Shown here in pieces: positions 13,886 through 41,295 of a DNA stretch of 42,782 nucleotides. The stretch's first letter is position 1; the number at the start of each line of letters is the position of its first letter. This DNA comes from Anaerolineae bacterium (GTDB lineage: Bacteria; Chloroflexota; Anaerolineae; 4572-78; J111). Location of the stretch: positions 1-42,782 of the forward strand of contig JAFGDY010000083.1 in the NCBI GenBank assembly GCA_016931895.1, read 5' to 3'. Under the pieces are notes generated by a model, which was not told the origin of the DNA, did not search any database, and saw only the letters and a program-made list of their open reading frames with translations. Both the position numbers and the translations under genes were made by a program.

Positions 13886-14926
13886 ATGAACAAAACGATA
13901 ACACGAAACCGGTATACACCTACCGGTTTCGTTTCACGGGCAAAAGGTTATATCCAACGTTTCTACCGGATAAACGGATTATTGTCTCCATTGGAGCCGC
14001 GCCTCTCGGAAAATCAAACCTCAGGAGTACCCCTAATCCGCCAACCGGTTATTATTATTGGGTGTGGGCGATCTGGCTCGACGATGTTATTTAATCTTCT
14101 CAGCGAACATCGTCGCCTGATACCAACGCGGGGCTTTCCCGACGGGGAAGATACCGAGATGTGGGTCAAAATTGGTGGGGCTTTTATAGCCGGTTTTGGC
14201 GGGGCCAGATTGCGCACGCCAATCGGCCACTGTTTTTGTCTACCGATGGACGATGCCGATATTGATCCGGCGCGGATCAACTTTATGCATAGTTATCTGG
14301 CCCAAAAATATCCCGCTCTGAAAAGGGATGGCTTTTATTTGCTAAACAAGAACGGACATCTCAGCAACAAACTCAAATACATCCACAAGATTTTTCCTGA
14401 CGTTAAGTTGATTCATATCATCAGGCATCCTTATGCGATGATTGCCAGTTGGAAAATCATCCTCGCTCAGTTTGGCCATCTGCTGGTGGAGATTCCAAAA
14501 GAACCAACAACGTGCATGAACCTCTACCCCAACCAAGGCTGGCGCCGTCACTCCCACGTAATCAGCCGGTACAATACAAACATCTACGACCCGACCAGAC
14601 CAGACTCGGTACGATTACTGGCCAGACATTGGGTCAACATTAACACCTACATTATGCAACAATTGAAGGAGAGGCCGGATATTAACTGCCATTTGGTCAA
14701 GTATGAAGACATGTGTCTGGATCAGGATAGGACCTTGACCGCTCTACTTGACTTTTGCGAACTGCCGGCCAAAACCGAGTGGGTGTTGAGAATGGATCAG
14801 GCTATTAACTACAAATGGCGAACTCAGCTTACCGAGGCAGAATGCACGATAATCAGAGAAGAGCTTGAAGCGGATATAGCGAAGTTGGGCTATGAACTGC
14901 CCCCATCTACAATAAAGACCCGATGA
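13886..14926 (+). CDS. PAPS-dependent sulfotransferase family protein
   Basis: 346 residues. The 5'-phosphosulfate-binding loop GCGRSGST lies at 59-66 and the 3'-phosphate-binding segment LIHIIRHPYAMIASW near 175-189 (R180, S188). Residues ~90-130 are an insertion rich in aromatic and charged residues. It would transfer sulfate from PAPS to a hydroxyl of the glycan or a lipid carrier. No PAPS synthesis genes are in the window. It starts three bases after the methyltransferase and overlaps the next gene by ATGA. Polymer sulfation is inferred. Confidence 0.83.
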   Translation: MNKTITRNRYTPTGFVSRAKGYIQRFYRINGLLSPLEPRLSENQTSGVPLIRQPVIIIGCGRSGSTMLFNLLSEHRRLIPTRGFPDGEDTEMWVKIGGAFIAGFGGARLRTPIGHCFCLPMDDADIDPARINFMHSYLAQKYPALKRDGFYLLNKNGHLSNKLKYIHKIFPDVKLIHIIRHPYAMIASWKIILAQFGHLLVEIPKEPTTCMNLYPNQGWRRHSHVISRYNTNIYDPTRPDSVRLLARHWVNINTYIMQQLKERPDINCHLVKYEDMCLDQDRTLTALLDFCELPAKTEWVLRMDQAINYKWRTQLTEAECTIIREELEADIAKLGYELPPSTIKTR

Positions 14927-17550
14927 ACCAGAATGAACTCGTCTTTCTTCTGTTGGTTGAACTACTGTTATTAGTCTATCTTCGTTGGACGCTCAAATCT
15001 CGGGGCGCGGCCCTTGCCCTGGCGATATTGTCTGTAATTCCGATATATTTATCCCTGGAAATGACCAGCCAATTTTTAACCGTGGATGAAGAGCAGATTA
15101 ACGAGTCGCTTTACATATCTTTACCTGATTATAGCCCAAACCAATGGTTGCGAGGGTTATTCAGAACAACCGATGTTTTGTTTGGTCCCCTGGGAGCGAT
15201 CCTGCTCAAATACTTCCCCCAGATGGCAACGACGCAAATCAAAATTCTATTCAAGAATCTCCATTGGCTGACCGGATTCATCATTTTACTCTGGATGTAT
15301 CATTTGTTGAAGCGACACTTTGTTGTGGCCAGCCACAGCGCGTTCTATTTTATTATTTTTATATACACCGCTTTGCTCCTGCCAACCAATAACCTGGCCT
15401 TAAAGATTTTTTATCAAGATCCACTGGTTCTATTGCTGGGCGTTATGGCCATCTTATACCTCATTCTGGCAATCAAGAACAGAAACCGGATTTTTGCCCT
15501 GTTCAGCATTGTTCTTGCGTTTCTGGCCGCCCAAGAAAAATTGAACGCATTTCCGATTTTAATCCTTTCTTGGGCGGTATATGGCTACTTGAGTTACCTG
15601 CTTGCGGCCAGGTTTAAATATATCAAGTTGGTTTGGAGCCTTTTGCTGGCCATCGCCATTACCCTGCTTACAAGCGCCGTGTTTATGCTAATCATTGCCG
15701 GGCTGCGAAATTGGAATGTTCCGGAGGAATTTTGGCAGAGCACCCATTACCCCTTGACCGCCTGGGGGGGAACACTTCGGTTTATAACTGAAAAAATCAA
15801 CTTTGGCAATTACTATCCTTTGCAAACATTGGCGCTTACCCTGCTCATAACCTGTCTGCTGGCCGCTGCTCTTTTATTGGCAAACAGGTTTCTGACTAAA
15901 AATTCAAGCTTGTTGATGAAGTTTGGCCGCTCAATCAATAACGCGAATATCGGTCTGGCGATTTTGGTTCTTGTTATAGGAATTGTAAGCACCTATTATG
16001 TTCAAGCGTATTTAGCCCCGCATTTCCCCATCGAATCCGGCCAGTATCAACCTTCCGGCAAAATGAATGATACCATTGTTCACTTTGCGGCTACTTCGCG
16101 GCGCCAACATATAGCTTTATACATTGGTCATAGTTATGCCGCGTTTGTGAATTCAATGCCATCAGTCTATTGGCTTGGTTTAGCCGGCGCATTTATTGTT
16201 TCCAAGATCCTTCACCGGGAACAGAAAACAAGTTGGGATCTCGAATTACTATTAACTTTGGCTCTGCTCATGCCACTGGCCTTTGCCCTGGCCCAAATGC
16301 CGGTTGGAGGTAGATATTTCAACATCGGCTTGTTCTTGACAGCCCTGGTCATTTCGTTCAAGGTAACGGAGGCGATGACCAACCTGTCGCCAATGAAAAA
16401 CGCCCTTTTTTGCGCCCTGTTTGTAACAGCTTTAATTCTTGAGGTTCTGCCTTTCCGCCCCTTGTATGCCCCTTTTAGACCGATTTGGTCAAATCATTAC
16501 AGTAATACCCCCGAAGCCGGAAAGCCAATCCGGCCATGGCCGGGTTGGGGAGAGGAGGTAATGCTGGCCGGTAAAATTCTTGAGAAACAGTGTCATGCGT
16601 CGGATGATCACACTCTCGATGGGGTTCCTTGTGTGTCACTAACTTTAGCCACTCTGTATGGAGGCGACTGGTTAGATCTAAACCAGCAGATCAGCACTAT
16701 TCAAGGTGTTCGAACTTCATTGTCAAAGTTGCCCCTCACAGCAGCCAATTATTATATTATTAACCGCGCCTGCGTTGTTCAGAAAACCTGTCCATTTCCG
16801 GCTGAAGTAGACCCTGCCTTTGTCATCAATTTTCGGGGATTTATTCAGGCCTGGATATTCAGGGGCGACCAACTTAGAGCAGCCGGATACGAGTTCATCC
16901 GTCACTGCCCAACCGACCAAAGAGCATTGACGAAATTACCAAGCTTAAACAATCGCCTACAGGCGATACCATTAAATAGCCTACCTGCTGAATTACCGCC
17001 TGTATCCTGTAATATGGAACCTGCGGGAGAATTTCGAGACCTGTGGCATAGCGCCAAAGCGCTTATAGGATGCCCGCAACACATTGAACCGTTGGCCGGC
17101 GAATTCATTGAAACATCTTTTGAAAAGGGACGTATGTTTTGGCCAGACAAGCTTGACCCTTATGGTGACTTTAGATTGGTTATCGCTACTTATGGCGGGC
17201 AGGAGTTAGGGGCATGCGGCAATTGGGAATATTACCCGGAGGATTGGCAGCCGGAACTACCCGAATTCTCCTGCTCTCCCGGCGACCCACCCCCGGGAAA
17301 ATTTCAACCGAAATTTGGCATAGGGCAGGTATGGTGCATGCCCGGAGTATTCGATAGAATCGGCTGGGCCATAACCCCAGAATATAAACCTGAGCCTAAA
17401 GTAAGCCTGCTTCAGAACTTTGAGAAAGCAGTAATTCTGCGTGATAGCGAGGGTTACGAGGAGGGACTGGTCTACGTTCTCTTTCACGCAACGGGAGAAT
17501 ATATCAGGCTGCCATATCAGGGCGTCGTCACAACAGACCGGCAAAAGTAA
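14923..17550 (+). CDS. giant multi-TM GT-C-like membrane protein A with extracytoplasmic tail
   Basis: 875 residues. About 1-520 hold roughly 11-13 hydrophobic segments; an acidic D55-E56 follows the first two, where GT-C transferases carry their catalytic acid. About 540-875 are soluble, including two half-repeats (region of GRMFW, and GIGQVWC with IGWA) that resemble the LGFP-like surface domains common in Chloroflexota. I infer a polyprenyl-phosphate-sugar-dependent transferase or polymer-handling protein with its tail outside. A full-length paralogue lies at 18755. It starts in an ATGA overlap with the sulfotransferase gene. No curated family name can be given from sequence alone. Confidence 0.7.
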   Translation: MNQNELVFLLLVELLLLVYLRWTLKSRGAALALAILSVIPIYLSLEMTSQFLTVDEEQINESLYISLPDYSPNQWLRGLFRTTDVLFGPLGAILLKYFPQMATTQIKILFKNLHWLTGFIILLWMYHLLKRHFVVASHSAFYFIIFIYTALLLPTNNLALKIFYQDPLVLLLGVMAILYLILAIKNRNRIFALFSIVLAFLAAQEKLNAFPILILSWAVYGYLSYLLAARFKYIKLVWSLLLAIAITLLTSAVFMLIIAGLRNWNVPEEFWQSTHYPLTAWGGTLRFITEKINFGNYYPLQTLALTLLITCLLAAALLLANRFLTKNSSLLMKFGRSINNANIGLAILVLVIGIVSTYYVQAYLAPHFPIESGQYQPSGKMNDTIVHFAATSRRQHIALYIGHSYAAFVNSMPSVYWLGLAGAFIVSKILHREQKTSWDLELLLTLALLMPLAFALAQMPVGGRYFNIGLFLTALVISFKVTEAMTNLSPMKNALFCALFVTALILEVLPFRPLYAPFRPIWSNHYSNTPEAGKPIRPWPGWGEEVMLAGKILEKQCHASDDHTLDGVPCVSLTLATLYGGDWLDLNQQISTIQGVRTSLSKLPLTAANYYIINRACVVQKTCPFPAEVDPAFVINFRGFIQAWIFRGDQLRAAGYEFIRHCPTDQRALTKLPSLNNRLQAIPLNSLPAELPPVSCNMEPAGEFRDLWHSAKALIGCPQHIEPLAGEFIETSFEKGRMFWPDKLDPYGDFRLVIATYGGQELGACGNWEYYPEDWQPELPEFSCSPGDPPPGKFQPKFGIGQVWCMPGVFDRIGWAITPEYKPEPKVSLLQNFEKAVILRDSEGYEEGLVYVLFHATGEYIRLPYQGVVTTDRQK

Positions 17551-17591
17551 CCAAATATTCGCCCTACAATATACTGAATTTGCCAGAAACA

Positions 17592-17598
17592 AGAGGGG
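17592..17598 (+). promoter_or_regulatory. Shine-Dalgarno site deciding the start at 17609
   Basis: AGAGGGG lies ten bases before ATG 17609. The open frame runs back to 17441 inside the preceding gene, but those codons lack any membrane or family match. Confidence 0.55.
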
Positions 17599-17608
17599 AA
17601 CTGAAACA

Positions 17609-18670
17609 ATGACTTTGAAACTGACCAGCCAGCAGCGCATGTGGGTGAGTTGGATAGCCCGGCTGGCCTTTGCCGCCCTGATTTTGGCATTGCTATTCAC
17701 CCAGGTCGATTTTGCCGCCGTACCGCATACCTTAAGCCGTCTTGACCTGCGCTTATTTATAATCGCCTTGGCCAGTTTTTTTCTCCTCCGGTATATCTAC
17801 GCCTACCAACTATCGTTGGGCCTGGATTTACTCCAGATGCGCTTCAGCATCTTTGAACTGTTCAAGATCAAGCTCATTGCGGGTTTTTATAGCTTGCTGC
17901 TGCCTGGTGAGTTAGCGGGAGGGGGCGCAACCTGGTACAAACTCTCGCGTCCTGAACGCAAAGGTATCCAGGCCGGGGCGCTGTTGATTTATTTCCGATT
18001 GGTGGACACTCTCGTTTTGCTCGGCGTCGGCTTAATTGGTATGTGGTTTGATGCGCGCCTGGCCTCACCCTACTTCCGAACCATCGTGGGGATGATGTTT
18101 GGCGGGGTGATGTTGTTATGGCTGCCCTTTTGTTCGGCAACGGTGACCAGCCTGATAGCTCACCTGAGCCGGCCGCTGTTATCTCGCCTTCCGCTTCCAA
18201 CCTGGTTATACGCCAAAGGTTGCGCCGCCTGGGAAGCCTTGATTGCTTTCCAGGGGTTAGCCAATGGCCGCACCATTGGATTGGTGCTGGGCCTGTCGTT
18301 ATTAGCCCGGAGTTTGGGGGTATTCAACGTATATCTATTAGCCTTGGCTCTGGACATCCATCAACCTATATTCGTCATAGGTTGGTTGACTGCCCTAACA
18401 GCCATCATCAACATGATGCCGGTTTCGGTTGCCGGGCTGGGGGTACGTGAAGCCAGTTTTGTCTTGCTTTTAAATGATTACGGTATATCCGAAGCGCGGG
18501 CCTTGAGCCTATCCCTGATAATTTTTGGCGCAGCGGTGGTGGGCGGATTGGCAGGAGGCCTATTTGAAGCCGGCGACTGGCTGCAAGGTGGACGACGAAT
18601 CCACCAGGCTGTTTCAGGGCCAGAGAATGGTGTTACGGGGTCTATAACAACAATTATCCAAGAAGAGTAA
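17609..18670 (+). CDS. lysylphosphatidylglycerol synthase TM-region / AglD-like (UPF0104) membrane protein
   Basis: 353 residues with about eight membrane helices. Signatures of the LPG_synthase_TM (PF03706) family are visible: an early VDF after helix 1, LLPGELAGGGATWYKLS near 100, and PVSVAGLGVREASF near 275. Members act in lipid-linked sugar handling (AglD) or lipid translocation. Here it sits exactly between two paralogous giant GT-C-like proteins, suggesting it supplies or flips their lipid-linked substrate. Its stop codon is inside the left arm of a REP-like hairpin. Confidence 0.85.
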   Translation: MTLKLTSQQRMWVSWIARLAFAALILALLFTQVDFAAVPHTLSRLDLRLFIIALASFFLLRYIYAYQLSLGLDLLQMRFSIFELFKIKLIAGFYSLLLPGELAGGGATWYKLSRPERKGIQAGALLIYFRLVDTLVLLGVGLIGMWFDARLASPYFRTIVGMMFGGVMLLWLPFCSATVTSLIAHLSRPLLSRLPLPTWLYAKGCAAWEALIAFQGLANGRTIGLVLGLSLLARSLGVFNVYLLALALDIHQPIFVIGWLTALTAIINMMPVSVAGLGVREASFVLLLNDYGISEARALSLSLIIFGAAVVGGLAGGLFEAGDWLQGGRRIHQAVSGPENGVTGSITTIIQEE

Positions 18671-18735
18671 CTACTTAGGCCACTCCCAACCTCGTTCCCA
18701 AACTCCAGTTTGGAAACGAGAGGCTGGGTAGTTAC
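18667..18735. repeat. REP-like long inverted repeat
   Basis: Inner arms 18691-18704 and 18707-18720 (CTCGTTCCCAAACT against AGTTTGGAAACGAG) pair with one mismatch around a CC loop; outer arms GTAACTAC and GTAGTTAC pair at the ends. The CTCGTTCCCAAACTCC core resembles dispersed palindromic repeats I recall from many bacterial genomes, often linked to RAYT transposases. It may also act as a terminator or RNA-stability hairpin between the two genes. Confidence 0.75.
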
Positions 18736-18754
18736 CAAGAAGATACAAACTACT

Positions 18755-21409
18755 ATGAATCGGTATGAACTTGTTTTTCTGTTTTTGGCCGAACTCTCAC
18801 TCCTGCTCTATCTCCGTTGGCAATGCAAGTCGTGGCGCGCAGCCTTGCTTCTAGCTGCCTTATCCCTCCCCCCCTTATACCTCTCTCTGGAACGAGTCAG
18901 TCAATTTCTAACCTACGATGCGCTCGTGTACGGCATTATCTTGGAATCGCTCCACCTGGCCTCCGCTGACCTGGGGCAGTGGCTTCTGGTTGCCGCCAGA
19001 ACGACGACCACCTCGCTAGGTTTACTGGCGGCCGCAGCGCAATATTACGCGCCGGAAATGACCGAGATCCAGGGCAAAATCATCCTCAAAAATCTGCATT
19101 GGTTGACCGGATTTATTCTCTTACTCTGGCTCCATTACCGCTTGCGCCGGGACTTCATCTCAGAGTCAAATAAAAAATTCTTCTTTGTTATTTTTATCTA
19201 TACCGCCTTACTCCTGCCAACCAACAACATTGCTCTGAAAGTTTTCAATTACGATCTGCTCTCGATGCTGTTAGGCATCTTGGCTCTGTTGCACCTGGTA
19301 ACAGCCATCAAAGAAAAAAGTTCCAGGGATGGGTTGATTGGGATTGTCTTGGCCTGGTTGGCCGCCCAGGAGAAGTTGATCGCCTCTCCAATCTTAATCT
19401 TTGCTTTAGCCGTATATGGCTACCTGGTTAGCCAACCAGCCTCAAAGTCTGGTTATGCCAGGTTGTTTCGGGGTGTTCTGGTGGGTTCTATTGTGGCGGC
19501 GGCCATAGGTATTATTTTTACGTTGGTCGTTGCCGTCATACGACATTTTAATGTGCCGACCGGTTTCTGGGTAGGCGCTGTGCGTCCTTTGACAGCATGG
19601 GCCGGGCCAATTATGCTATACAATTTTGGCATTTTCGGCAGTGATAATTTTAGATATTACTTCTTACCCCTGCTGGGGCTATCTTTCCTGATTAGCTGCC
19701 TGGCGGCCCTGGGCATTTTGTTGGCAGACAAATTTTTCACACTTCGACCCCATTTATTGGCCATAATCGGCCGCCAACTCGATCGGGCCAATATTCTGCT
19801 GGCTATTTTGGCGCTGTTGGTTGGAATTGCCGGCACCTATGTCGTAGATGTTTACTATGCCCCGTATTTTCCCATTGCGCCGGGGAATTATGACCCTCCG
19901 GTCCCAATATTCGCCGGCACTGAGATCGATTTGCACTTCAACGCGGCCTCGGCCTGGCAGCATCGTGTTTCGTTCATAGCTTATGCTTACGCCATTTTTG
20001 TGAATGCAATGCCCACGGTTTACTGGCTTAGCATGCTGGCGGCCCTGCTCGTGACCAGGCTTACCCAACAGCGGCAGAAAATAGACCTGGGATTGGAACT
20101 GCTATGGACCGGGGCCTTGCTCATGCCGCTGGTTTTTGGGCTGTTCCAGATCCGGGTATGGAACAGATACTTCAACATCGGCCTATTTTTGTTTGTTATG
20201 GTGGTTTCGCTGAAAGTGACAGAAGCGCTCACCACCCTGCCCGCAAAGAAGAAAGCCGCCTTTGGGGGGATATTTGCGGTACTCCTGCTGGCAGAGATTC
20301 TGCCTTTCCGCCCTTTATATGGCGCTTTCAGACCGATCTGGGCGCATTACGACGACAGTACCCCCATCAAGGGCAAACTCAATCCGGCCTGGCTGGGCTG
20401 GGGTGAAGATATTATGCTGGCCGGCCAGGCGCTAGAAAATCAATGTCACCTGTCGGGTAATAATACCTTAAACGGCATCCCATGTAACTCCATTACCCTC
20501 TACTGGGCTTATCCAGGCGAGTGGCTGGATGAGAACAAAGAGATTACGGTGCTACCTTACCAAAAAATATATGACAAACTGGCCAGCGGGGAACCGGTAT
20601 ATACGGCTGCTAATTATTATCTCATCAATCGTTCAAACATTATCCAGGAGGACACTTTTCCGGCTGAAGTGCCACCCGATGTTCTGATCAGTTTCAGGAG
20701 GTATCCCCAAACCTGGGTCTACCGGCTTGACCGGCTGAAAGAAGCCGGTTACGAGTTCATCCGGCCCAACGAACCCTTTCGCCTGGCCCGTTGGCAAACT
20801 GAAGAGGATTACTGCCGGGAATTGGTCACAAACAGCCCTCCCGCTGCGCCGGTTTTATGTGAGGTTGAACCGCGCGGAGAATTTTATGAGTTATGGCAGC
20901 GCGAAAAATGGCGGCTGGGCTGTCCTTTGCACCCTGAACCGGTAACTACTGAGGCGATTGAGGTTCCGTTTGAACGGGGCCGGATGTTCTGGTTGGGCAA
21001 CCTCAGTGCTGCCGGCGAACGGCTGGTGATAACAATTTACGGGGGGCAGGAATTAGGGGAACAGGGCACTTTTCTCCACACCTGGCAACATGACCAACCT
21101 GGTTACGAACGAGGACAACCGGAATATGGCTGCTCTGCCGATGACCCCCCGCCGGGCAAATTTCAACCAACTTTTGGCATAGGCCAGGTGTGGTGCCAAC
21201 CCGAGGTTTTTGATAAAATCGGCTGGGCCACAGGGCCAGAAGAACACCCTTCACTGGGCGTCATTCTGGTGCAAGATTTTGAAAAAGCAGTGCTTCTACG
21301 AGATAACCAGGGTTACACCCAAGGGCTGGTTTATGTTCTGGGCCGGGCCGATGGACAATATATCAGGCTGCCTTACGCAGCCTGGGTATGTGAAGAGACC
21401 TCCCATTAA
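18755..21409 (+). CDS. giant multi-TM GT-C-like membrane protein B, tandem paralogue of A
   Basis: 884 residues, colinear with the protein at 14923: same opening (ELVFLFLAELSLLLYLRW), same D55 after SQFLT, shared KNLHWLTGFI and LLPTNN, and the same two-part soluble tail (RGRMFW, GIGQVWC, IGWA). E56 of copy A is Ala here. The frame runs back to a TTG in the REP hairpin, but ATG 18755 matches the paralogue's start. Tail sequences diverge most around residues 540-680, possibly the acceptor-specific part. Function inferred as for copy A. Confidence 0.72.
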   Translation: MNRYELVFLFLAELSLLLYLRWQCKSWRAALLLAALSLPPLYLSLERVSQFLTYDALVYGIILESLHLASADLGQWLLVAARTTTTSLGLLAAAAQYYAPEMTEIQGKIILKNLHWLTGFILLLWLHYRLRRDFISESNKKFFFVIFIYTALLLPTNNIALKVFNYDLLSMLLGILALLHLVTAIKEKSSRDGLIGIVLAWLAAQEKLIASPILIFALAVYGYLVSQPASKSGYARLFRGVLVGSIVAAAIGIIFTLVVAVIRHFNVPTGFWVGAVRPLTAWAGPIMLYNFGIFGSDNFRYYFLPLLGLSFLISCLAALGILLADKFFTLRPHLLAIIGRQLDRANILLAILALLVGIAGTYVVDVYYAPYFPIAPGNYDPPVPIFAGTEIDLHFNAASAWQHRVSFIAYAYAIFVNAMPTVYWLSMLAALLVTRLTQQRQKIDLGLELLWTGALLMPLVFGLFQIRVWNRYFNIGLFLFVMVVSLKVTEALTTLPAKKKAAFGGIFAVLLLAEILPFRPLYGAFRPIWAHYDDSTPIKGKLNPAWLGWGEDIMLAGQALENQCHLSGNNTLNGIPCNSITLYWAYPGEWLDENKEITVLPYQKIYDKLASGEPVYTAANYYLINRSNIIQEDTFPAEVPPDVLISFRRYPQTWVYRLDRLKEAGYEFIRPNEPFRLARWQTEEDYCRELVTNSPPAAPVLCEVEPRGEFYELWQREKWRLGCPLHPEPVTTEAIEVPFERGRMFWLGNLSAAGERLVITIYGGQELGEQGTFLHTWQHDQPGYERGQPEYGCSADDPPPGKFQPTFGIGQVWCQPEVFDKIGWATGPEEHPSLGVILVQDFEKAVLLRDNQGYTQGLVYVLGRADGQYIRLPYAAWVCEETSH

Positions 21410-21547
21410 AATTCAACCAGAAGAACCAGGGCTTGAGTTCCTCAGATAACCAATAGGCCACCATCGCTGTAAATTTGTGTTTTGCCTGGGCTTGGTGTAT
21501 GATGGCTGAATTGTCAAAAAACGGTTACTTTATTGAGGCGTACACAA

Positions 21548-23341
21548 GTGTTTTCCAGGATTTGGGGTGGCCTGGCAGGTATAACCTTCTTGGGCTTACT
21601 TTGGTTAAGCGGGCCTTATCTGGTTGGCGCTTATTATCTGGATAGAGGGGCCGCCCTCATGGCCGAGGGGGATAATCAGGCGGCGGTCGGCTACCTGGAA
21701 ATCGCCCTGCATTTTGAACCAGATAATGAGCAAACCTACCGCAAGTTGGCCAAAGCCTATCTGCAATTGGATAAACCCAAACAGGCCCTGGCAGCCGCAC
21801 AACAAGCCCTATCCTTATCACCCAACAACCCCCTCCTGCTGTTGGAGCTAGGGGATGCATACGATGACTTGGGCAATGTGGAACAGGCGATTGCTCATTA
21901 CCAAGCCGGGCTGATAGGCGACCGGCAACCCCAACTGGCTGTCAATTATCTGAAACTGGCCGAGCAATTATGGCTAAAAAATGACCGGGAAGCAGCGGTT
22001 TCTATCTGGCGCGATAAACTCCTGGGCCAAAATGATTACGCCGACTTATATGCTAAATGGCGTTTGTATCAATATTACGCACACAACGTTGAACAAGCTG
22101 ATTTTTACCGCAACCAGGCAAAGCATTTTCCTGAAGAAAGCTTTTTGCCAACAGCCGAACCCCGGTTAGCCAGTTACCAAATTGAGGCCATCGCCGGCGC
22201 GCTTAGAGATGATTTGTGGGCCACCGCCACCAAGCGGGGTGTGTTGGCTTACTATGCCTGGTACAATGATCTTCAACCAACCGAATTCTGGTTGCAGCGT
22301 TTGATAGAAGCGGCCCCGGAAGAGGCGGAATTATGGTATTACCTGGGCGAATATTATCGCCGCCAGGGACAATCACCCCAGGCCGAAAACGCCTACAAGC
22401 AAACCATCGCCCTGGCCCCCGATTATGCCCGGGCCTATCTGCGTTTAGGTATGCTGAACGAGGCCAGGTTCAAAAACGGTGAAAATCAACAGTGGCTGCG
22501 CCAGGCCCAAACCTGGTACCAACAATACCGCCAACTGGCTCCTGAAGACCCCCTCAGTTTAAAGAAGTTGGCCGATGGATGTGAATTGAGCCAATGCTCT
22601 GAAAATATCTGGCTGGCGCAGTTAAAGGAGGAGTTGGCCCATCGGGAGCCAGAATTTCCCGTTGGTGGTTACTATACTCAAATCAATGACTGGCAGTTAC
22701 TCGGTTATGACGCCAACGAAGCCATGTTGGTGGGGGGCGAGCCAACGGCCTTATGGCTTTACTGGTGGGCGCCGGCCAATGGTGTTCCTATAACCGACGA
22801 GGCCAACTTTTATCATATTGGCGAGCGTTGGGCGCAGGTGATAGAAGAGGCGCGGAACCTGGTTCCGAATGGCGGGTTTGAATTGGGCCGGACTCCTTTT
22901 GGTTTTCCTGAAGATATCTATGACATCTCTGCCCAAACACGCACTTTTGTCGCTGAGCGCCGTTATGGGCAAGATACCCGAGCCGCCTTACTCAACAACG
23001 TCGGCGAGATGGATCATACCAGTTTTGTTACCAATTATTTTCCGGTAAACCCACAGCACGTTTATTTGCAAGCGGCCTGGGCCAAAGGCAAAGAGGGGAC
23101 CGGTTTCCTGGGCTGGCGCTGGCTGGGCAACCTCAAAAGAGGGCAACAGGTGTATGATTACTACAACCTTATTCGGGAACCCAATGAGCCGGCTCATTGG
23201 GTTCACCATGCTCACCTCATGAAACCTGCCCAGGGCGCAACCGCAGCCCAGGTATGGTTACTTAACGCTGGAGTTGAAAATCAATTTTATTTTGATAACG
23301 TGCTGTTGGTAGATATTGGCCAATTTGGGCCGGCTGAATAA
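21548..23341 (+). CDS. exported or anchored TPR protein with C-terminal jelly-roll
   Basis: About 597 residues. One N-terminal hydrophobic helix is followed by three or more clear TPR units (for example YRKLAKAYLQLDKPKQA and WYYLGEYYRRQGQSPQA), a middle region and a beta-rich C-terminal domain opening with PNGGFE, like the tail of the SGNH protein at 2542. TPRs suggest a scaffold for an extracytoplasmic assembly complex, and the jelly-roll suggests glycan binding. The frame opens at TTG 21533; GTG 21548 is preferred because GAGG lies at the right distance. It may organise the giant membrane proteins encoded just upstream. Confidence 0.75.
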   Translation: MFSRIWGGLAGITFLGLLWLSGPYLVGAYYLDRGAALMAEGDNQAAVGYLEIALHFEPDNEQTYRKLAKAYLQLDKPKQALAAAQQALSLSPNNPLLLLELGDAYDDLGNVEQAIAHYQAGLIGDRQPQLAVNYLKLAEQLWLKNDREAAVSIWRDKLLGQNDYADLYAKWRLYQYYAHNVEQADFYRNQAKHFPEESFLPTAEPRLASYQIEAIAGALRDDLWATATKRGVLAYYAWYNDLQPTEFWLQRLIEAAPEEAELWYYLGEYYRRQGQSPQAENAYKQTIALAPDYARAYLRLGMLNEARFKNGENQQWLRQAQTWYQQYRQLAPEDPLSLKKLADGCELSQCSENIWLAQLKEELAHREPEFPVGGYYTQINDWQLLGYDANEAMLVGGEPTALWLYWWAPANGVPITDEANFYHIGERWAQVIEEARNLVPNGGFELGRTPFGFPEDIYDISAQTRTFVAERRYGQDTRAALLNNVGEMDHTSFVTNYFPVNPQHVYLQAAWAKGKEGTGFLGWRWLGNLKRGQQVYDYYNLIREPNEPAHWVHHAHLMKPAQGATAAQVWLLNAGVENQFYFDNVLLVDIGQFGPAE

Positions 23342-24128: not shown

Positions 24129-25418
24129 ATGAACCTCAGAAATAAACTGGGCATCACGATATTTGCTCAACTCTTTGGAGTCGGCAGCACGGTTTTGACC
24201 AATATTATTATCGCCCAAAGATATGGGCCAGAAGGGCAGGGGTTTCTTACGACCTATCGCTCTGGGGTAGATTTTCTCACCAATATTGGCCTCTTTGGAT
24301 TTCCACAAGCCTTTGTATTTATGATAAACTCCAAAATGATAAAAACTAACTGGGCGGTGAAATTCTCTGCCTCCTATAGTCTCTTGTTTGGGGGGGTGGT
24401 TTTAGGCCTGGGCAGCCTTTTATACGCTTTGGGCGTGAGGGAGTTGAGCGGCTTTAATGTGCTGACCATTCTGGCCATCATTGTGGCCGCCACCGGCATG
24501 TTGCTGCACGGCATGTACCGAGCTATAAGTTTATCAGTCAAACCAATTCAAGTTTACAACTTGGTTTCGGTTATGCCGGCTGTTTTTGCCCTCTTGATAT
24601 ATTTCTTGTGGTACGCCGAGAATTACCAGATTTTGGTGCTGGGCCTGGTGTTTGCCGGCGCTATTTCTGCCTGCTTGTCGGCCTTTGTCTTAAAGGAGCA
24701 TTTATTCTTCAAACAAAGAGATGGCCATAATTTATCTAAAGTGATTGAGGCGACCCGGTATGGTTTCTGGTCATTTATTCCCGGTATTGCTTTTTCCTTT
24801 GTGGCTATGGCCACATACACCTTGTTGCGCCAGGGCGGCAAGGCTGACGAAATAGCCGGTTACTTTAGTATTTCATATTTGTTGGTTTCCACAGTCATTT
24901 TGCCCCTTAATATGATTATCCCGGTGCTGTTTGATACCTGGTCAAAGGAGACAGACCAAAAATACAATCTGCAATCCTATCTCAAACTCTCACACCTGGG
25001 CACAGTTATGGCTGTTGCCGGTTCTACGATAGGCATGCTTCTGGTTAAACCAATGACAATTCTGGTCTTTGGACTGGAGTTTTCACCATCGGCGCTATCA
25101 ACTCAAATCTTGCTATTGAGTGTTTATGCTCTGTATCAAAACCGGCTCCTATCGGCTATGCTGTTGGCCCTGGGCCAACCGGCAGTGGTGGGGATTGGGG
25201 CTTTAATTCGAGCGGCCATCATTCTGCCGCTTCTATTTTGGGGAGAATTCAATTCTCACCTGGGGGCGGCCTCGCTCTGGACTATTGGGGAGTTTATCAA
25301 TATGATTTATATGTTGATTCTCGTATGCCGCCGAACCGGTTGGGTGTCGTCCCAGGTAGCCGGCCTATCCTTACCCTGGATTTTCGAAAACTTGAAACAT
25401 CCCCCTATCCGAACATAG
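24129..25418 (+). CDS. Wzx-type oligosaccharide flippase
   Basis: 429 residues, about 12 membrane helices, with the MOP-superfamily opening (LGITIFAQLFGVGSTVLTNIIIAQRYG) and RYGPEGQG typical of polysaccharide flippases. It moves the lipid-linked repeat unit across the cytoplasmic membrane. It stands immediately before the polymerase candidate, the usual Wzx/Wzy arrangement. No polysaccharide co-polymerase (Wzz) is seen in the window. Confidence 0.87.
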   Translation: MNLRNKLGITIFAQLFGVGSTVLTNIIIAQRYGPEGQGFLTTYRSGVDFLTNIGLFGFPQAFVFMINSKMIKTNWAVKFSASYSLLFGGVVLGLGSLLYALGVRELSGFNVLTILAIIVAATGMLLHGMYRAISLSVKPIQVYNLVSVMPAVFALLIYFLWYAENYQILVLGLVFAGAISACLSAFVLKEHLFFKQRDGHNLSKVIEATRYGFWSFIPGIAFSFVAMATYTLLRQGGKADEIAGYFSISYLLVSTVILPLNMIIPVLFDTWSKETDQKYNLQSYLKLSHLGTVMAVAGSTIGMLLVKPMTILVFGLEFSPSALSTQILLLSVYALYQNRLLSAMLLALGQPAVVGIGALIRAAIILPLLFWGEFNSHLGAASLWTIGEFINMIYMLILVCRRTGWVSSQVAGLSLPWIFENLKHPPIRT

Positions 25419-25442: not shown

Positions 25443-26822
25443 ATGGAAAACATTTCCTTCTATCTCTTATATACCCTAAACACATTATTGTTGGTTACAG
25501 GCTTGCTTTTTAGCCTGAAACGACAAAGAGTTTACAGTCTAATCTGGGCCGCTTTAGCCATACTGCAAATCATATCAATTTTTAGTTTCAAGAGTTTTTT
25601 AGCCGATTTTGGCCTGGATACGCTTGTATACGGACAAGCGTTAATGGTACCGGCCAACCTGCTGTTTTTAATTATGACGGCCGGCCTTGACATGATTCTG
25701 CTGCAAAATAGGCGATTGAATTCAGGTAGGGTTGAGGTCACTGAGGGTATTTCAAATCGATATTTTTTTATCGCCCTGGCGATTGTTATCTTCTCCATTA
25801 TGCTGCGTTTCAGACATGGCGTGGCCCTGGCTCTATCCGACTGGGAAAGCGCCAGAGCTTCCTTGGGCCTGGTAGACTCCTTGGGGACGCTATTAGGGTT
25901 CATCTATTTTCCCAGTATCTGGTTGGCGCTGAAAGCAAAAAGGTTTTTACTCTTTATTCTGTTGAGTTTGTTTGGTTTTATCTTTTTTCAAATCACTGGT
26001 TCAAGGGCCATGTTGCTCACCCTTTTGTGTGTTATGTATATTGATCTGCTGCGCTCGTCAATGCCTTATTTGCAGAAGCTTTTCCTATTGATAGTCTTGG
26101 GCGCGGCGGGGTTTAGTTTACATACCTTTACCCGGCTGGTGCGTGGATTAGGGTTGGCTGCTTTTCTGGCTTTGGTTACATCCGGAGGCTTGCTGGCACA
26201 TCTGGCCAGCTATGATTTTGATCTTTCTGGAGGAGAAAGTGAAATTTATCAGTATTATTATTATTTAATTGATAAAGATTATACTCAATATCCCTATAAA
26301 TCTGGCGTAACCCTAACCAGACTGGCGCTGATATATATTCCTGGCAGCATGTTTCCCGAGTTAAAACCAGCTGATATCACCTACCAAATCTGGCTAGATG
26401 CCCTACAAGACGGCCTTTTTAACAGGAGTCCTTATCTTCACGCATGGATAGCGATGGTCGAGTCAGGATCGCTTGGTTCGCTTCACCCTACCTTGTGGGG
26501 CGACGCTTACGCCAATTTAGGCATATTGGGTATGTTTTTTTATCCGGCTTTCTTTGGTTTTATATTGGTGATGGTTGAATATCATCTCATGCGCCTGTCT
26601 TATGTAAGCCTATATACCATTGCCTCAATTATTGGCACGGGTTACTTGATGGTTGGTCGGGGTAATCTTGTTATTGGATTGGGCTATATTGCCTATATTA
26701 TTCCCTTGGCTTTGTCTATTTTCTGGCTAACCAAAATCCCCATTATTAGAAAAAAAAATTATAAGAAGGTCAACAATGCCACGTATTCTCTTCTTGGCCG
26801 GCGCAACCTCTATACATACTAA
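25443..26822 (+). CDS. Wzy-like O-antigen polymerase candidate
   Basis: 459 residues with about 10-12 hydrophobic helices and a larger loop near 270-345 (after SGGESEIYQYY, including PGSMFPE and LHPTLWGD). Arginines in the mid-part (TGSRAMLL) and the PTLWGDAYANLG block are typical of the O-antigen polymerase/ligase fold (compare EpsG/OatA-like). It polymerises repeat units outside the membrane. The assignment is from topology and position after Wzx, as sequence conservation in the family is low. Its end overlaps the next gene by 47 bases. Confidence 0.72.
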   Translation: MENISFYLLYTLNTLLLVTGLLFSLKRQRVYSLIWAALAILQIISIFSFKSFLADFGLDTLVYGQALMVPANLLFLIMTAGLDMILLQNRRLNSGRVEVTEGISNRYFFIALAIVIFSIMLRFRHGVALALSDWESARASLGLVDSLGTLLGFIYFPSIWLALKAKRFLLFILLSLFGFIFFQITGSRAMLLTLLCVMYIDLLRSSMPYLQKLFLLIVLGAAGFSLHTFTRLVRGLGLAAFLALVTSGGLLAHLASYDFDLSGGESEIYQYYYYLIDKDYTQYPYKSGVTLTRLALIYIPGSMFPELKPADITYQIWLDALQDGLFNRSPYLHAWIAMVESGSLGSLHPTLWGDAYANLGILGMFFYPAFFGFILVMVEYHLMRLSYVSLYTIASIIGTGYLMVGRGNLVIGLGYIAYIIPLALSIFWLTKIPIIRKKNYKKVNNATYSLLGRRNLYTY

Positions 26823-37694: not shown

Positions 37695-38423
37695 ATGGCC
37701 ATAGCGATTAAAAATAAGGAAAAAGGAAGAGCACGGCCAAAACGTGAAACAAAGTTACCGGCGATGGATCCGCTACCGTTGGAGAATGGGGCCCGGTTGA
37801 GCCGGGCGGAATTTGAGCGGCGCTACAAAGCGATGCCTCAGCTTAAAAAAGCGGAATTGGTTGAAGGAGTGGTTTATATGCCACCACCGATACGAAGTAG
37901 GCACAGCGAGGCGCACGGGGATATTATGATTTGGTTGGGGACTTATCGCGTAGCTGTTTCCGGTGTTCATTTGAATGACAATACTACGCTGCGTTTGGAT
38001 ATGGACAACGAAGTGCAGCCAGACGCGCTGCTACGATTGGATTCGGCCCTGGGAGGGACATCACGGATCAGCGATGACGACTACATTGAAGGGCCGCCGG
38101 AGTTGATTGTGGAAATTGCCGCCAGCAGCGCCTCGTATGATTTGCACGATAAGTTGAACGTGTACCGACGCAATGGAGTGCAGGAGTACGTTGTATGGCG
38201 GGTCTATGAAGAAGCATTAGATTGGTTTCAATTAAGAGAGGGGATTTACCATCCTTTGGAGGCCGGGGAAGACGGCGTTATTCGTAGCCAGGTCTTTCCG
38301 GGTTTACAGTTGGCCGTAGAAGCATTGTTGGCGGGCGATATGGCAACCGTGCTGGCAGTGGCCAAAGAGGGAACGGAAACAGAAGCGCGCGCTGCCTTTG
38401 CGGAACGTTTATCCCAAAAGTGA
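37695..38423 (+). CDS. Uma2 family (DUF820) PD-(D/E)XK nuclease-like protein
   Basis: 242 residues. A lysine/arginine-rich N-terminus (1-20) precedes a restriction-endonuclease-like fold: QPDALL with D110, ELIVEIAASS with E140, K153 in DLHDKLNVYRRNGVQEYVVW, all typical of Uma2. The family is very abundant in Cyanobacteria and Chloroflexota and has no settled function. Here it lies with the MNT/HEPN pair in an insert inside the polysaccharide locus. AAGG lies before the ATG. Confidence 0.88.
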   Translation: MAIAIKNKEKGRARPKRETKLPAMDPLPLENGARLSRAEFERRYKAMPQLKKAELVEGVVYMPPPIRSRHSEAHGDIMIWLGTYRVAVSGVHLNDNTTLRLDMDNEVQPDALLRLDSALGGTSRISDDDYIEGPPELIVEIAASSASYDLHDKLNVYRRNGVQEYVVWRVYEEALDWFQLREGIYHPLEAGEDGVIRSQVFPGLQLAVEALLAGDMATVLAVAKEGTETEARAAFAERLSQK

Positions 38424-38458
38424 GGAGATTTGCCAGGTTCTGTTGACATTTACCCATA

Positions 38459-38815
38459 ATGACATCAACATTATCCATCGCACGCGATCGTTACACCAAA
38501 ACATTGGCTCAAGATTTAAACAGCCTGGTACGGCAACTGAGCGGCATGCCAACCGTACAAATGGTCATGCTGTTCGGGTCCTATGCCGCCGGACGGCGAG
38601 ATTTGTTTACAGACCTGGATTTATTGGTGGTCATGCATTCTTCGTTGGATTTTGTGACCCGCTGCGCGGAATTGGCTCGCTGTTTACGGGCCAGGGTGGC
38701 GGTAGACCTGCTGGTGTATACACCGCAAGAGATGGAGCGAATGCAAAACCGTCCCTTTATGCGCCATATCTTACACACGGGTAAAGTGCTATATGAGAGA
38801 AAACCCACGAAATGA
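38459..38815 (+). CDS. MNT nucleotidyltransferase (antitoxin of MNT/HEPN pair)
   Basis: 118 residues; canonical GS-x10-DxD with G40, S41, D52, D54 and a third acid D83 in VAVDLL. In MNT/HEPN modules this enzyme modifies and silences its HEPN partner. It overlaps the HEPN gene by 23 bases. No Shine-Dalgarno match before ATG 38459, so its start is the least certain part. This is the second MNT gene in the window (first at 3-245). Confidence 0.85.
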   Translation: MTSTLSIARDRYTKTLAQDLNSLVRQLSGMPTVQMVMLFGSYAAGRRDLFTDLDLLVVMHSSLDFVTRCAELARCLRARVAVDLLVYTPQEMERMQNRPFMRHILHTGKVLYERKPTK

Positions 38816-39209
38816 AGGAAACCGGTGGCTGGAGCAGGCGCAAGCCGATTTAAAGTGGACCCAACACCTCAATATTGAAGGGGCATACTATCTTGTCTGT
38901 TTTCTGGCTCAACAAACGGCAGAGAAAGCATTAAAAGCTTTTCTCTACGCCCAGGGAGAAGAGTTGGTGGTAGGCCATTCGGTGCGACAGCTTTGCCAAC
39001 GAGTGGCTAAATATGAGGAACGGTTTCAACAACACCTTGATGATTGGGCCATACTCGATAGTTATTACATTCCAACCCGCTATCCTAATGGATTGCCAGG
39101 TGATATACCGGCTCATGTGTATAATAAAACAGCCGCCGCCACAGCTTTGGTTTTGGCAGAAGCCGTGGTGGCCCAGGTAGAAGCCTGGTTTTTAGAAACA
39201 ACTTCATGA
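38793..39209 (+). CDS. HEPN domain protein (toxin partner)
   Basis: 138 residues of helical HEPN fold: QAQADLKW at the start, CFLAQQTAEKALKAFL as the conserved second helix, and YYIPTRYPNG near 91-100, the PF05168 signature. Unlike the HepT-like protein at 220, it lacks RX4HXY. It may bind nucleotides or cut RNA under control of the MNT partner. Its TGA overlaps the ATG of the next GT-C gene (ATGA), coupling a toxin-antitoxin module to a polysaccharide gene. Confidence 0.85.
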   Translation: MRENPRNEGNRWLEQAQADLKWTQHLNIEGAYYLVCFLAQQTAEKALKAFLYAQGEELVVGHSVRQLCQRVAKYEERFQQHLDDWAILDSYYIPTRYPNGLPGDIPAHVYNKTAAATALVLAEAVVAQVEAWFLETTS

Positions 39210-40540
39210 AAAAACAGAGCCTTACCCCCACGTTGCTGCTGCTGCTGGTATCTATAACCCTCATCCGAGGGTTAATTTATGCCTCGGTGACGCCGCCCTG
39301 GTGGCAAAGTCACGACGAAGAGTTTCACTTTGCCCAGATCAGGCTATTGGTTGGACAATGGACAACAGCCAGCCCCTTGACTCAAGACTGGCCCCAAGAA
39401 ATGGCAGCTAATTTTGCCGCCTTCCCGGCCTCACGGTGGACCAGCGCTTCAACGCACCAACCCAATTTAGTCAATATTTCAGACAGATATGCCAGCTTTG
39501 TTCGCCCCTCTCTGTCGTATTACCTCTACGCCTGGCCGGGGAATTTTTTAATCCACCAAGATATATTGCTGCAACTTTTGACCTTACGCCTGGTATCGGT
39601 TTTTATTACCGGTGGCGTTATCATTTTTGCCTTTTTAAGCGCCAGGCAGATTTTTCCAGAAGCATTACTAACGCAAATTATGGTACCGTGGCTGGTTTTA
39701 TTCACTCCCTCTTTTATGATCATCAATTCGGCCATCAATGACGGTAATCTGACCGTGCTGTTAGCCACAGTTATTTTTTATCTGCTGTTACTGGAAACAA
39801 GCCAATCGCGGATCGGCCGGCGGACGGGACTGGCCCTGGTGCTCACGGTATTGGCTTTTTGGTCAAAGTCTACGGCTTACTTTTTGATCATTGGGTGGGG
39901 TTTTTTGTTGTTATGGTATGTTTGGAAATTTGGCCCAAAATACTGGTTAGGGATTGGAGTGGCAGGAATAGCCTTATTCTTATCCTTTTTTCTCTTGCCG
40001 GAATACCACCAAAATAAGTTGACCAGCGTGGGGTGGTATGCCACCGGATTGAGCTTAAAAACAATAGAGGGTGCTTTTTTAATTGAGAACTTCAGAGATA
40101 TGTTTGCCGGCTACTGGGGGATTTTGGGCTATTTTATTTACCGGCTCGACCAAATCTGGTACACTCTCTTGTTCCTATTTTCAGCCGTAGCCGCCATTGG
40201 CCTGCTTTTTCATTTATGGCTTTGGATCAAAAAAAAGGACCCGGACATCAACAAGCAGAAAGGATTGCCGATAACTCTATTATTTGCCGGCACGGCGATG
40301 GTTATATGGTTTGGGGTTGCCGTTTTCTACCACAACAAAGGGTTTAGCGTGTCGTTGGCGCGTTACCTTTTTCCGGCAATAGTGCCTTTTTCTATTTTAA
40401 TGATTGCCGGCTGGCAGACTTTGCTGCCAAAAAACTGGCGCAATATCTGTTTTCTTTTCATTGCCGGCGCTTTCTTTTTATTCGATACCCTGGTTTGGCT
40501 CAATTATGCCCTGCCCTGGTACTATCCTTTTTGGCCATGA
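39206..40540 (+). CDS. GT-C-like / DUF2142-like multi-TM membrane protein
   Basis: 444 residues with about ten helices. The first outer loop has PPWWQSHDEEFHF (H36, D37, E38), matching the Pro-Asp-Glu-x-x-His style motif of GT39/DUF2142-like GT-C proteins where the acid is catalytic. It would transfer a sugar from polyprenyl phosphate outside the membrane. It starts within the HEPN stop codon and ends in an ATGA overlap with the following gene. A soluble C-terminal domain, often fused in this type, seems to be encoded separately next. Confidence 0.75.
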   Translation: MKKQSLTPTLLLLLVSITLIRGLIYASVTPPWWQSHDEEFHFAQIRLLVGQWTTASPLTQDWPQEMAANFAAFPASRWTSASTHQPNLVNISDRYASFVRPSLSYYLYAWPGNFLIHQDILLQLLTLRLVSVFITGGVIIFAFLSARQIFPEALLTQIMVPWLVLFTPSFMIINSAINDGNLTVLLATVIFYLLLLETSQSRIGRRTGLALVLTVLAFWSKSTAYFLIIGWGFLLLWYVWKFGPKYWLGIGVAGIALFLSFFLLPEYHQNKLTSVGWYATGLSLKTIEGAFLIENFRDMFAGYWGILGYFIYRLDQIWYTLLFLFSAVAAIGLLFHLWLWIKKKDPDINKQKGLPITLLFAGTAMVIWFGVAVFYHNKGFSVSLARYLFPAIVPFSILMIAGWQTLLPKNWRNICFLFIAGAFFLFDTLVWLNYALPWYYPFWP

Positions 40541-41256
40541 TTTTTATAAAACAACAACTCCCCCTGTTTAAGAAACAAATTTATATCCTGATCTTCATCA
40601 TGCTACTCGGCGGCGGCCTGGCCTTAATATTGGCTAAAGGCTTGGATTTACTGGGTTATGAGGGCCAAATTGTGAACGCCGAAATATTGAATTTGGATGA
40701 ATTAGAGATTCAAGGGGATTTTATTATTGGTCAAACCTTTGTAGCCCCACGGGATAATTTACAACGGATTGATGTAGTGTTACGCAACTACGGCCGTAAA
40801 AATACCCACGACGTCACCTTCTATTTGAAACCATCCCCAGACTCAGCAGAAGTTCTCTACCAGGAAACATTCAATGCCTCCACTGTGGGGAATAACCAAT
40901 GGCGCACGTTTGAATTTCCCCCTCTACCCGATTCGGCCGGCAAAACTTTCTTCTTCTATTTTGCTTCGCCCGACTCTATAGGCGGTGACGCCATTTCCGT
41001 AGGCGGCGCAACAGGGGATTTTTATGACGAAGGCAACGCCTATCTTATCCTGGGGCCGGCCGAAGGGGATCTGGCTTTTCGCACTCATTATGGCCTCTCA
41101 CCGGCGGAAAAACTGACGATCCTGGGGCAACGGATCGTGGAGGATAAACCCTCCATCTGGGGCGATATTCGCTTTTACATCTTGCTGCTGATACTGTACG
41201 GCCTGTTCATGATCCGGGTTTTTGCCCAACTCTGCAAACTTGTCCAGAGTGAATAA
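40537..41256 (+). CDS. two-TM protein with extracytoplasmic beta domain
   Basis: 239 residues: an N-terminal helix (about 13-35), a beta-rich domain (about 50-205, including GQTFVAP, FEFPPLPDS and GDLAFRTHYG) and a C-terminal helix (about 210-232). The domain resembles beta-sandwich modules attached to GT-C proteins of Chloroflexota. The open frame begins at TTG 40495, but ATG 40537 overlaps the GT-C stop by ATGA and is the better start. Probably works as a subunit of the upstream protein; not a named family that I recognise. Confidence 0.7.
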   Translation: MIFIKQQLPLFKKQIYILIFIMLLGGGLALILAKGLDLLGYEGQIVNAEILNLDELEIQGDFIIGQTFVAPRDNLQRIDVVLRNYGRKNTHDVTFYLKPSPDSAEVLYQETFNASTVGNNQWRTFEFPPLPDSAGKTFFFYFASPDSIGGDAISVGGATGDFYDEGNAYLILGPAEGDLAFRTHYGLSPAEKLTILGQRIVEDKPSIWGDIRFYILLLILYGLFMIRVFAQLCKLVQSE

Positions 41257-41280
41257 ACCTTGCGCTCATAACCTTAAACT

Positions 41281-41287
41281 AAAGGAG
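41281..41287 (+). promoter_or_regulatory. Shine-Dalgarno site supporting a TTG start
   Basis: AAAGGAG lies eight bases before TTG 41296. The only nearby ATG (41288) runs into a stop after three codons, so TTG is the start. Confidence 0.6.
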
Positions 41288-41295
41288 ATGTCTGC

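Follow-up and report, generated by a model that had tools for sequence, protein, structure and literature searches.

What might two very large membrane proteins do that lie in tandem on either side of a putative flippase gene, and do they belong to a described family of glycosyltransferases? The question is raised by a contig of an Anaerolineae bacterium (JAFGDY010000083.1, here C83), which was analysed whole as a window of 42,782 bases and which belongs to a 6.06 Mb genome in 320 contigs. Window coordinates written with two dots refer to the forward strand. Copy A (14923..17550, 875 residues) and copy B (18755..21409, 884 residues) flank a gene for a PF03706 (LPG_synthase_TM, UPF0104-like) membrane protein of 353 residues (17609..18670), a putative lipid-linked sugar flippase. 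Each copy combines a membrane core that we read as a divergent GT-C glycosyltransferase, a middle extracytoplasmic domain, and a tail related to LGFP repeats. We consider it probable, if by no means certain, that A and B are divergent polyprenyl-phosphate-sugar-dependent GT-Cs acting on a surface polymer, and that the PF03706 protein helps to export their donor.

A and B are paralogues. They align from residue 1 to the end, as a preliminary description of the locus had claimed, with 440 identities over 890 positions (49%, 719 bits, BLASTP), and are co-directional; the longest frame of copy B opens at a TTG (18710), and its 884 residues are counted from the ATG at 18755. Synonymous sites are saturated (dS, divergence per synonymous site, 1.5-2.2) and the corresponding nonsynonymous divergence, dN, is low (about 0.41-0.46; dN/dS about 0.2-0.3), from which we conclude that both copies are under purifying selection and look like working genes. 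A crude averaged hydropathy scan finds 13 hydrophobic segments, close to the approximately 12 helices proposed earlier. The aspartate D55 is present in both copies as described, and its place is the first large loop, after the second segment, rather than literally the first loop. It is followed in copy A by E56 (codons at 15085..15090, aligned to the 'DE' columns of GT-Cs) and in copy B by A56 (18917..18922), so that the glutamate is indeed kept in A only. Copy B retains D55, D167, K207 and R471-Y472. The two-part soluble tail proposed for both proteins was also recovered, and consists of the middle domain (about residues 526-690) and the LGFP-related module (about residue 697 to the end).

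The relationship of the membrane core (residues 1-525 of copy A, 14923..16497) to GT-Cs emerged from profile-profile comparison with hhalign. The host genome contains 80 matches to PMT_2, and 92 large multi-helix open reading frames (ORFs) gathered around them were clustered, 59 of them forming one group. Pairwise and plain profile searches with A and B against the 92 ORFs gave nothing significant (best E 0.051), and early profile-profile runs against their clusters were weak; a clear signal was obtained only once we used a subgroup that we call 'GWGEG-type', a label coined in this analysis. Against 39 full-length GWGEG GT-Cs the A/B pair profile reached a P value of 2.3e-5 and a score of 49.8, compared with 31.1 for the best of 60 local column shuffles. 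These shuffles preserve the hydropathy pattern, and none of the 60 in each of the domain, full-length and membrane-core tests reached the real score. The reported alignment covers positions 501-663 and extends at a lower confidence cut over 20-681 along one colinear path, pairing FLTVDE with FLTADE, the QEKL with the LSK region, PLYAPFRPIW with PYYLTYFNPLLGG, GWGE with GWGEG, AANYY with AADYV, and AWIF with AWIYP. With the membrane part alone, hhalign gave P 0.0014 and a score of 35.3 against the 39 full-length proteins (best shuffle 27.6), and P 3.9e-4 against the 59 own-genome GT-Cs. Three other membrane proteins of the window, taken as controls, scored 14.5, 18.0 and 16.4, and the window's own separate GT-C, a positive control, 70.0. 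A PF03706 alignment of 17 sequences was also tried as a negative control; the window's PF03706 protein did not match it, and the result was left unused.

The 'DE' columns agree. When A and B were added by MAFFT, unguided, to the 59 own-genome GT-Cs, D55 fell on a column that is Asp in 57/59, and position 56 on a column that is Glu in 45/59; the Glu column holds another residue, not a gap, in 13/59, five of which have Ala. The GWGEG members of the genome lead back to known enzymes, all eight (8/8) matching PMT_2 and their profile matching the solved structure of a protein mannosyltransferase (9i5k, E 1.4e-4). The GT-C-like character proposed for the membrane part is therefore supported by the profile-profile scores relative to both shuffles and other membrane proteins. 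On sequence grounds, the membrane part is best read as a divergent GT-C and no new fold class, strongly for A and weakly for B by itself. The profile evidence comes mainly from A, and copy B is counted as a GT-C because of its 49% identity to A.

The middle extracytoplasmic domain (16498..17010 in copy A, with GWGE at residues 541-544) strengthens the link. Compared with 45 GWGEG domains in hhalign, the pair profile gave P 2.2e-5 and a score of 47.9 over positions 501-658 (profile numbering), and the best of 60 shuffles 32.9. The motif in A and B is GWGE-E/D rather than GWGEG. Eight GT-Cs of the same genome carry a GWGEG domain after their last helices, and a search for it found matches in 33/41 genomes of this class. 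Judging from these matches, the middle domain appears to be the usual extracytoplasmic domain of the GWGEG-type GT-C group. The earlier statement that no described family is recognisable for the complete architecture thus applies in part: membrane and middle regions match these common GT-Cs, while the additional LGFP-related tail is unusual.

This tail spans about residues 697-875 in copy A (17011..17547) and about 706-884 in copy B (20870..21406), the two being 56% identical. When the whole pair was searched against 61 genomes, all matches beyond its own genome fell in the tail region (profile position at least 649). Of the ORFs with this tail in the fetched loci, 31 were examined, and none shows more than one hydrophobic segment in its visible part; many of these loci carry just about 1.5 kb of flank, and some ORFs are incomplete. 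By eye, many carriers are of beta-propeller, kinase or lipoprotein types, and the tail is widespread in the class. One locus (L021) has three tail copies in tandem. A and B are the sole fusions of a GT-C with this tail that we saw.

LGFP repeats are known for wall binding. Together with A and B the 31 ORFs form a tail family of 33, of which 22/33 match Pfam LGFP (PF08310) at E<=1 (best 2.8e-9); the match is missing in 11/33, including A and B, and we accordingly term the tail LGFP-related rather than LGFP. The family profile matches the PS1 protein in the PDB (6swz, 6sx4; E 7.3e-10), and both tail halves align to PS1 repeats. The tail family is thus related to LGFP through PF08310 members and PS1, which bears out the earlier suggestion of LGFP-like repeats. 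LGFP is described in PMC2447325 as a 54-residue repeat in cell-surface proteins.

The gene between the copies matches PF03706 (Pfam E 2e-27), confirming that the paralogues bracket such a gene. Its likely start, chosen from the sequence, is the ATG at 17609, the mechanical frame start being a GTG at 17441; it lies on the same strand as A and B, with flanking gaps of 58 and 84 bases. A near-perfect palindrome of 30 bases, with 14-nt arms and a 2-nt loop, is found between it and copy B (18691..18720), and among the genome matches listed for it there are five at four places with at most three mismatches, three of the places lying outside the window site. The protein itself matches no glycosyltransferase family: PF03706 is the only significant hit, and LapA_dom (0.013) fails its cut-off. 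The name 'AglD-like' given to it before is imprecise, since AglD charges the lipid and the flippase role is ascribed to the separate AglR; 'AglR-like' fits better.

PF03706 genes number eight in the genome. On contig C153 (6500-14739) a one-strand row consists of a GT-C, a PF03706 gene, a GT2 and a second GT-C, PMT_2 being above the cut-off in one GT-C and at 18.4 bits, below the cut-off, in the other. This row is a candidate operon with everything needed to export and transfer a lipid-linked sugar, the GT2 being a possible donor synthase. It matches the arrangement envisaged in the preliminary description, and we count it in favour of the reading preferred here. Contig C162 has a GT-C one gene away from a PF03706 gene, and among PF03706 loci fetched from relatives a GT-C lies within about 1.5 kb in 6/29 (best-scoring loci only, with no baseline). 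Across the genome and in relatives, the association of PF03706 with GT-Cs is suggestive.

The surroundings of the three genes are those of glycan synthesis. A sulfotransferase gene (PF13469, Pfam E 6.7e-23; 13886..14926) shares 4 bases with the beginning of copy A, and the first gene after copy B encodes a TPR protein (21533..23341; Pfam) with a single N-terminal hydrophobic segment read from its sequence. Further on are a Wzx-like flippase (24129..25418) and a Wzy-like polymerase (25443..26822), both recognised by eye from the translations and having no Pfam match, and a bacterial sugar transferase (PF02397) fused to a polysaccharide-synthesis dehydratase (PF02719; 34543..37215), a probable initiating enzyme that probably starts the repeat unit. 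The contig also holds asparagine-synthase-like proteins, several GT4 glycosyltransferases, WbqC, DegT aminotransferases and methyltransferases. With Wzx and Wzy assigned by eye, it appears to be a Wzx/Wzy-type polysaccharide cluster. The separate smaller GT-C (39206..40540, 444 residues) reaches 61 bits with the GT-C profile of its own genome (hhalign P 1.2e-8) and has no Pfam match at E<=0.01 despite this clear similarity. Just before it (38459-39209), two small ORFs resemble by eye a nucleotidyltransferase and HEPN pair, adjoining a Uma2 gene.

How might the pair work? The donors of GT-C enzymes are polyprenyl-phosphate sugars, which are used on the outside of the membrane, as also described in PMC11127046. 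In the reading that we favour, a lipid carrier charged with sugar would be brought, probably with the help of the PF03706 protein, to the outer side of the cytoplasmic membrane; A and B, drawing perhaps on a shared donor and possibly cooperating, would each bind it in the membrane core, with D55 as a likely catalytic residue. The sugar would then be moved onto the polysaccharide of the surrounding cluster, or onto another cell-surface polymer, and the LGFP-related tail may hold the acceptor or anchor the enzyme near the wall.

Several results weigh against this reading. Neither the two whole proteins (E<=0.1) nor their membrane parts (E<=10) matched any GT-C family of Pfam, and no GT-C model of NCBIfam matched them; among PDB sequences no chain was matched. 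In HMMER searches with a hidden Markov model (HMM) of the 59 GT-Cs, copy A scored a mere 5.3 bits, a value reached by 1, 1 and 0 of 150 local shuffles depending on shuffle width, its alignment extending to the conserved region that follows the last helices. Copy B scored -15.0 bits, equal to the PF03706 protein (-15.0) and reached by 5, 8 and 3 of 150 shuffles, and it failed the HMMER test for the GWGEG domain. Taken singly in hhalign, B gave a weak P of 0.0097, compared with 1.8e-5 for A. AlphaFold with two-sequence input returned no usable fold (mean predicted local distance difference test score 32.9 for the whole pair, 37.0 for the membrane part). E56 is missing in copy B. A PMT_2 match lies near 2/7 of the other PF03706 genes of the genome, which is no clear enrichment (binomial P 0.07-0.12 by distance). 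Finally, no polyprenyl-phosphate-sugar synthase, GT2 or other, was recognised among the scanned ORFs of the contig, those at 38398-39209 and 40495-42687 having been inspected in this survey by eye only.

The misfit with every curated model and the uninformative AlphaFold runs could mean that the membrane part is no GT-C at all and that the match reflects the compositional similarity of multi-helix proteins. We regard this as very improbable: hydropathy-preserving shuffles (0/60 in two tests) and three membrane proteins score far lower, and the colinear alignment extends into a soluble domain. That only A is active, B being a regulatory or structural partner or using a different donor, would suit the restriction of E56 to A and a GT-C profile similarity that is detectable in A and far less so in B. 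This seems unlikely to us, as B keeps the residues listed above and purifying selection acts on the pair; the Ala found at the Glu column in own-genome GT-Cs also means that loss of E56 need not abolish activity. About equally unlikely, in our judgement, is that A and B are PMT-like protein O-glycosyltransferases that decorate exported proteins instead of a polysaccharide, the tail docking at the wall. In its favour, PMT_2 and PMT are the Pfam families closest to the GT-C relatives of A and B, and the profile of these relatives matches a protein mannosyltransferase of solved structure; against it, A and B are encoded within a polysaccharide cluster that also contains an initiating transferase, Wzx- and Wzy-like genes, GT4s and a sulfotransferase, and the broad PMT_2 family has members with many acceptors.

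The PF03706 protein may act on some other lipid, modifying or moving it, rather than work for A and B, its adjacency being a chance feature of a glycan cluster. The non-significant adjacency of PF03706 and PMT_2 in the genome agrees with this, and the genome scans yielded no orthologous pair whose synteny could be compared; its co-directional placement between the paralogues with short gaps, the comparable row on C153 and the GT-C flanks in relatives speak against it. We lean against this alternative while holding it to be the most plausible of those considered. At the opposite end, obligate GT-C pairs such as Pmt1/Pmt2 and EmbA/EmbB exist, and one could imagine A and B as such a pair fed by one dedicated PF03706 flippase, with tails that read a wall polymer and so place decorations at set intervals or lock the polysaccharide to the wall. 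This elaboration is doubtful, and we give it less credence than the activity of A alone.

If A and B are GT-Cs of this kind, how widespread are they? A profile of the membrane and middle parts was scanned over 396, 400, 25 and 395 genomes and the whole pair over 61, for a total of 1,277 overlapping scans in a sample of one genome per species drawn from a larger group. Outside its own genome, these scans brought up no credible relative of the membrane part, a congeneric genome (G001) being among those covered, which indicates either that the family is very narrow or that the sampling missed its relatives. Weak matches to the membrane part in other genomes were dropped after inspection. They comprise a 68-residue match in G024 (E 5.9e-5), whose frame has 72 residues and contains a stop; seven matches at E 0.0014-0.0073, among which a transporter and proteins resembling NADH dehydrogenase, acylase and GT-Cs were recognised by eye; and one in G013 (E 0.97). 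Searches of genome contigs and of viral contigs with two short peptide patterns each, an insensitive approach, found no relative, and none was found on plasmids. PMT_2 matches often stand in tandem rows in this genome (C296, C299, C213, C235, C274). We rejected the idea that GT-C abundance is special to it, its 80 PMT_2 matches comparing with 8 to 64 in each relative, where at most 68 candidates were scored.

The type of enzyme is known, and the unusual part is the fusion with an LGFP-related tail together with the pairing of A and B. Narrow term searches of open-licence papers returned none on Chloroflexi polyprenyl GT-Cs or Anaerolineae glycosyltransferase family 39, none on LGFP with a transmembrane glycosyltransferase in Chloroflexi, and none describing a wall-guided GT-C machine in Chloroflexota. 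Two proteins that are blank in curated databases thereby acquire a probable function, and the analysis indicates that GT-Cs of this lineage diverge past the reach of standard models. With its gene placed between those of two GT-Cs, the PF03706 protein lends itself to testing whether members of its family are bacterial exporters of lipid-linked sugars. Both this sandwiched gene and the tail fusion seem to us worth testing by specialists, unsurprising as they are in principle.

Compared with known systems, A and B are closest to PMT_2/PMT-type GWGEG GT-Cs, with which they share a colinear membrane core, the DE motif in the first large loop, a YNPLLGG-/GWGEG-like region and the extracytoplasmic domain; unlike these, they score too low for every curated model and carry the additional tail. 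In the GtrA/GtrB/Gtr* and Citrobacter GT136 systems, as described in PMC11127046, the GT-C that decorates a polysaccharide works with a charging enzyme and a flippase. Here, too, a GT-C occurs with a putative flippase among polysaccharide genes, but with PF03706 in place of a GtrA or MATE flippase, two GT-C copies and no recognised synthase on the contig.

The defining feature of AglD is a glycosyltransferase domain fused to PF03706. In Haloferax, according to PMC3871713, AglD charges the lipid, AglR is ascribed the flippase role and AglS is the transferase, all as separate proteins. AglR, proposed to flip the lipid-linked sugar, and AglS, acting outside, would parallel the PF03706 protein and A/B, while the lipid-charging AglD has no counterpart adjoining the two copies. 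The GT136 enzyme of Citrobacter bears a carbohydrate-binding module (PMC11127046), a likeness to the tailed A and B. In mycobacterial EmbC, subdomain II is a carbohydrate-binding module required for activity (PMC3044687); EmbC is, like A and B, a GT-C with a C-terminal soluble region in two parts, and differs in that its module is lectin-like, not LGFP-related. If the tail binds a wall polymer, A and B would thus be another case of a GT-C with its own acceptor-binding part, like EmbC and GT136, by means of a different module. That module is related to the repeats of PS1 and the LGFP repeat proteins, which the tail family profile matches, and in A and B it is joined to a polytopic membrane enzyme.

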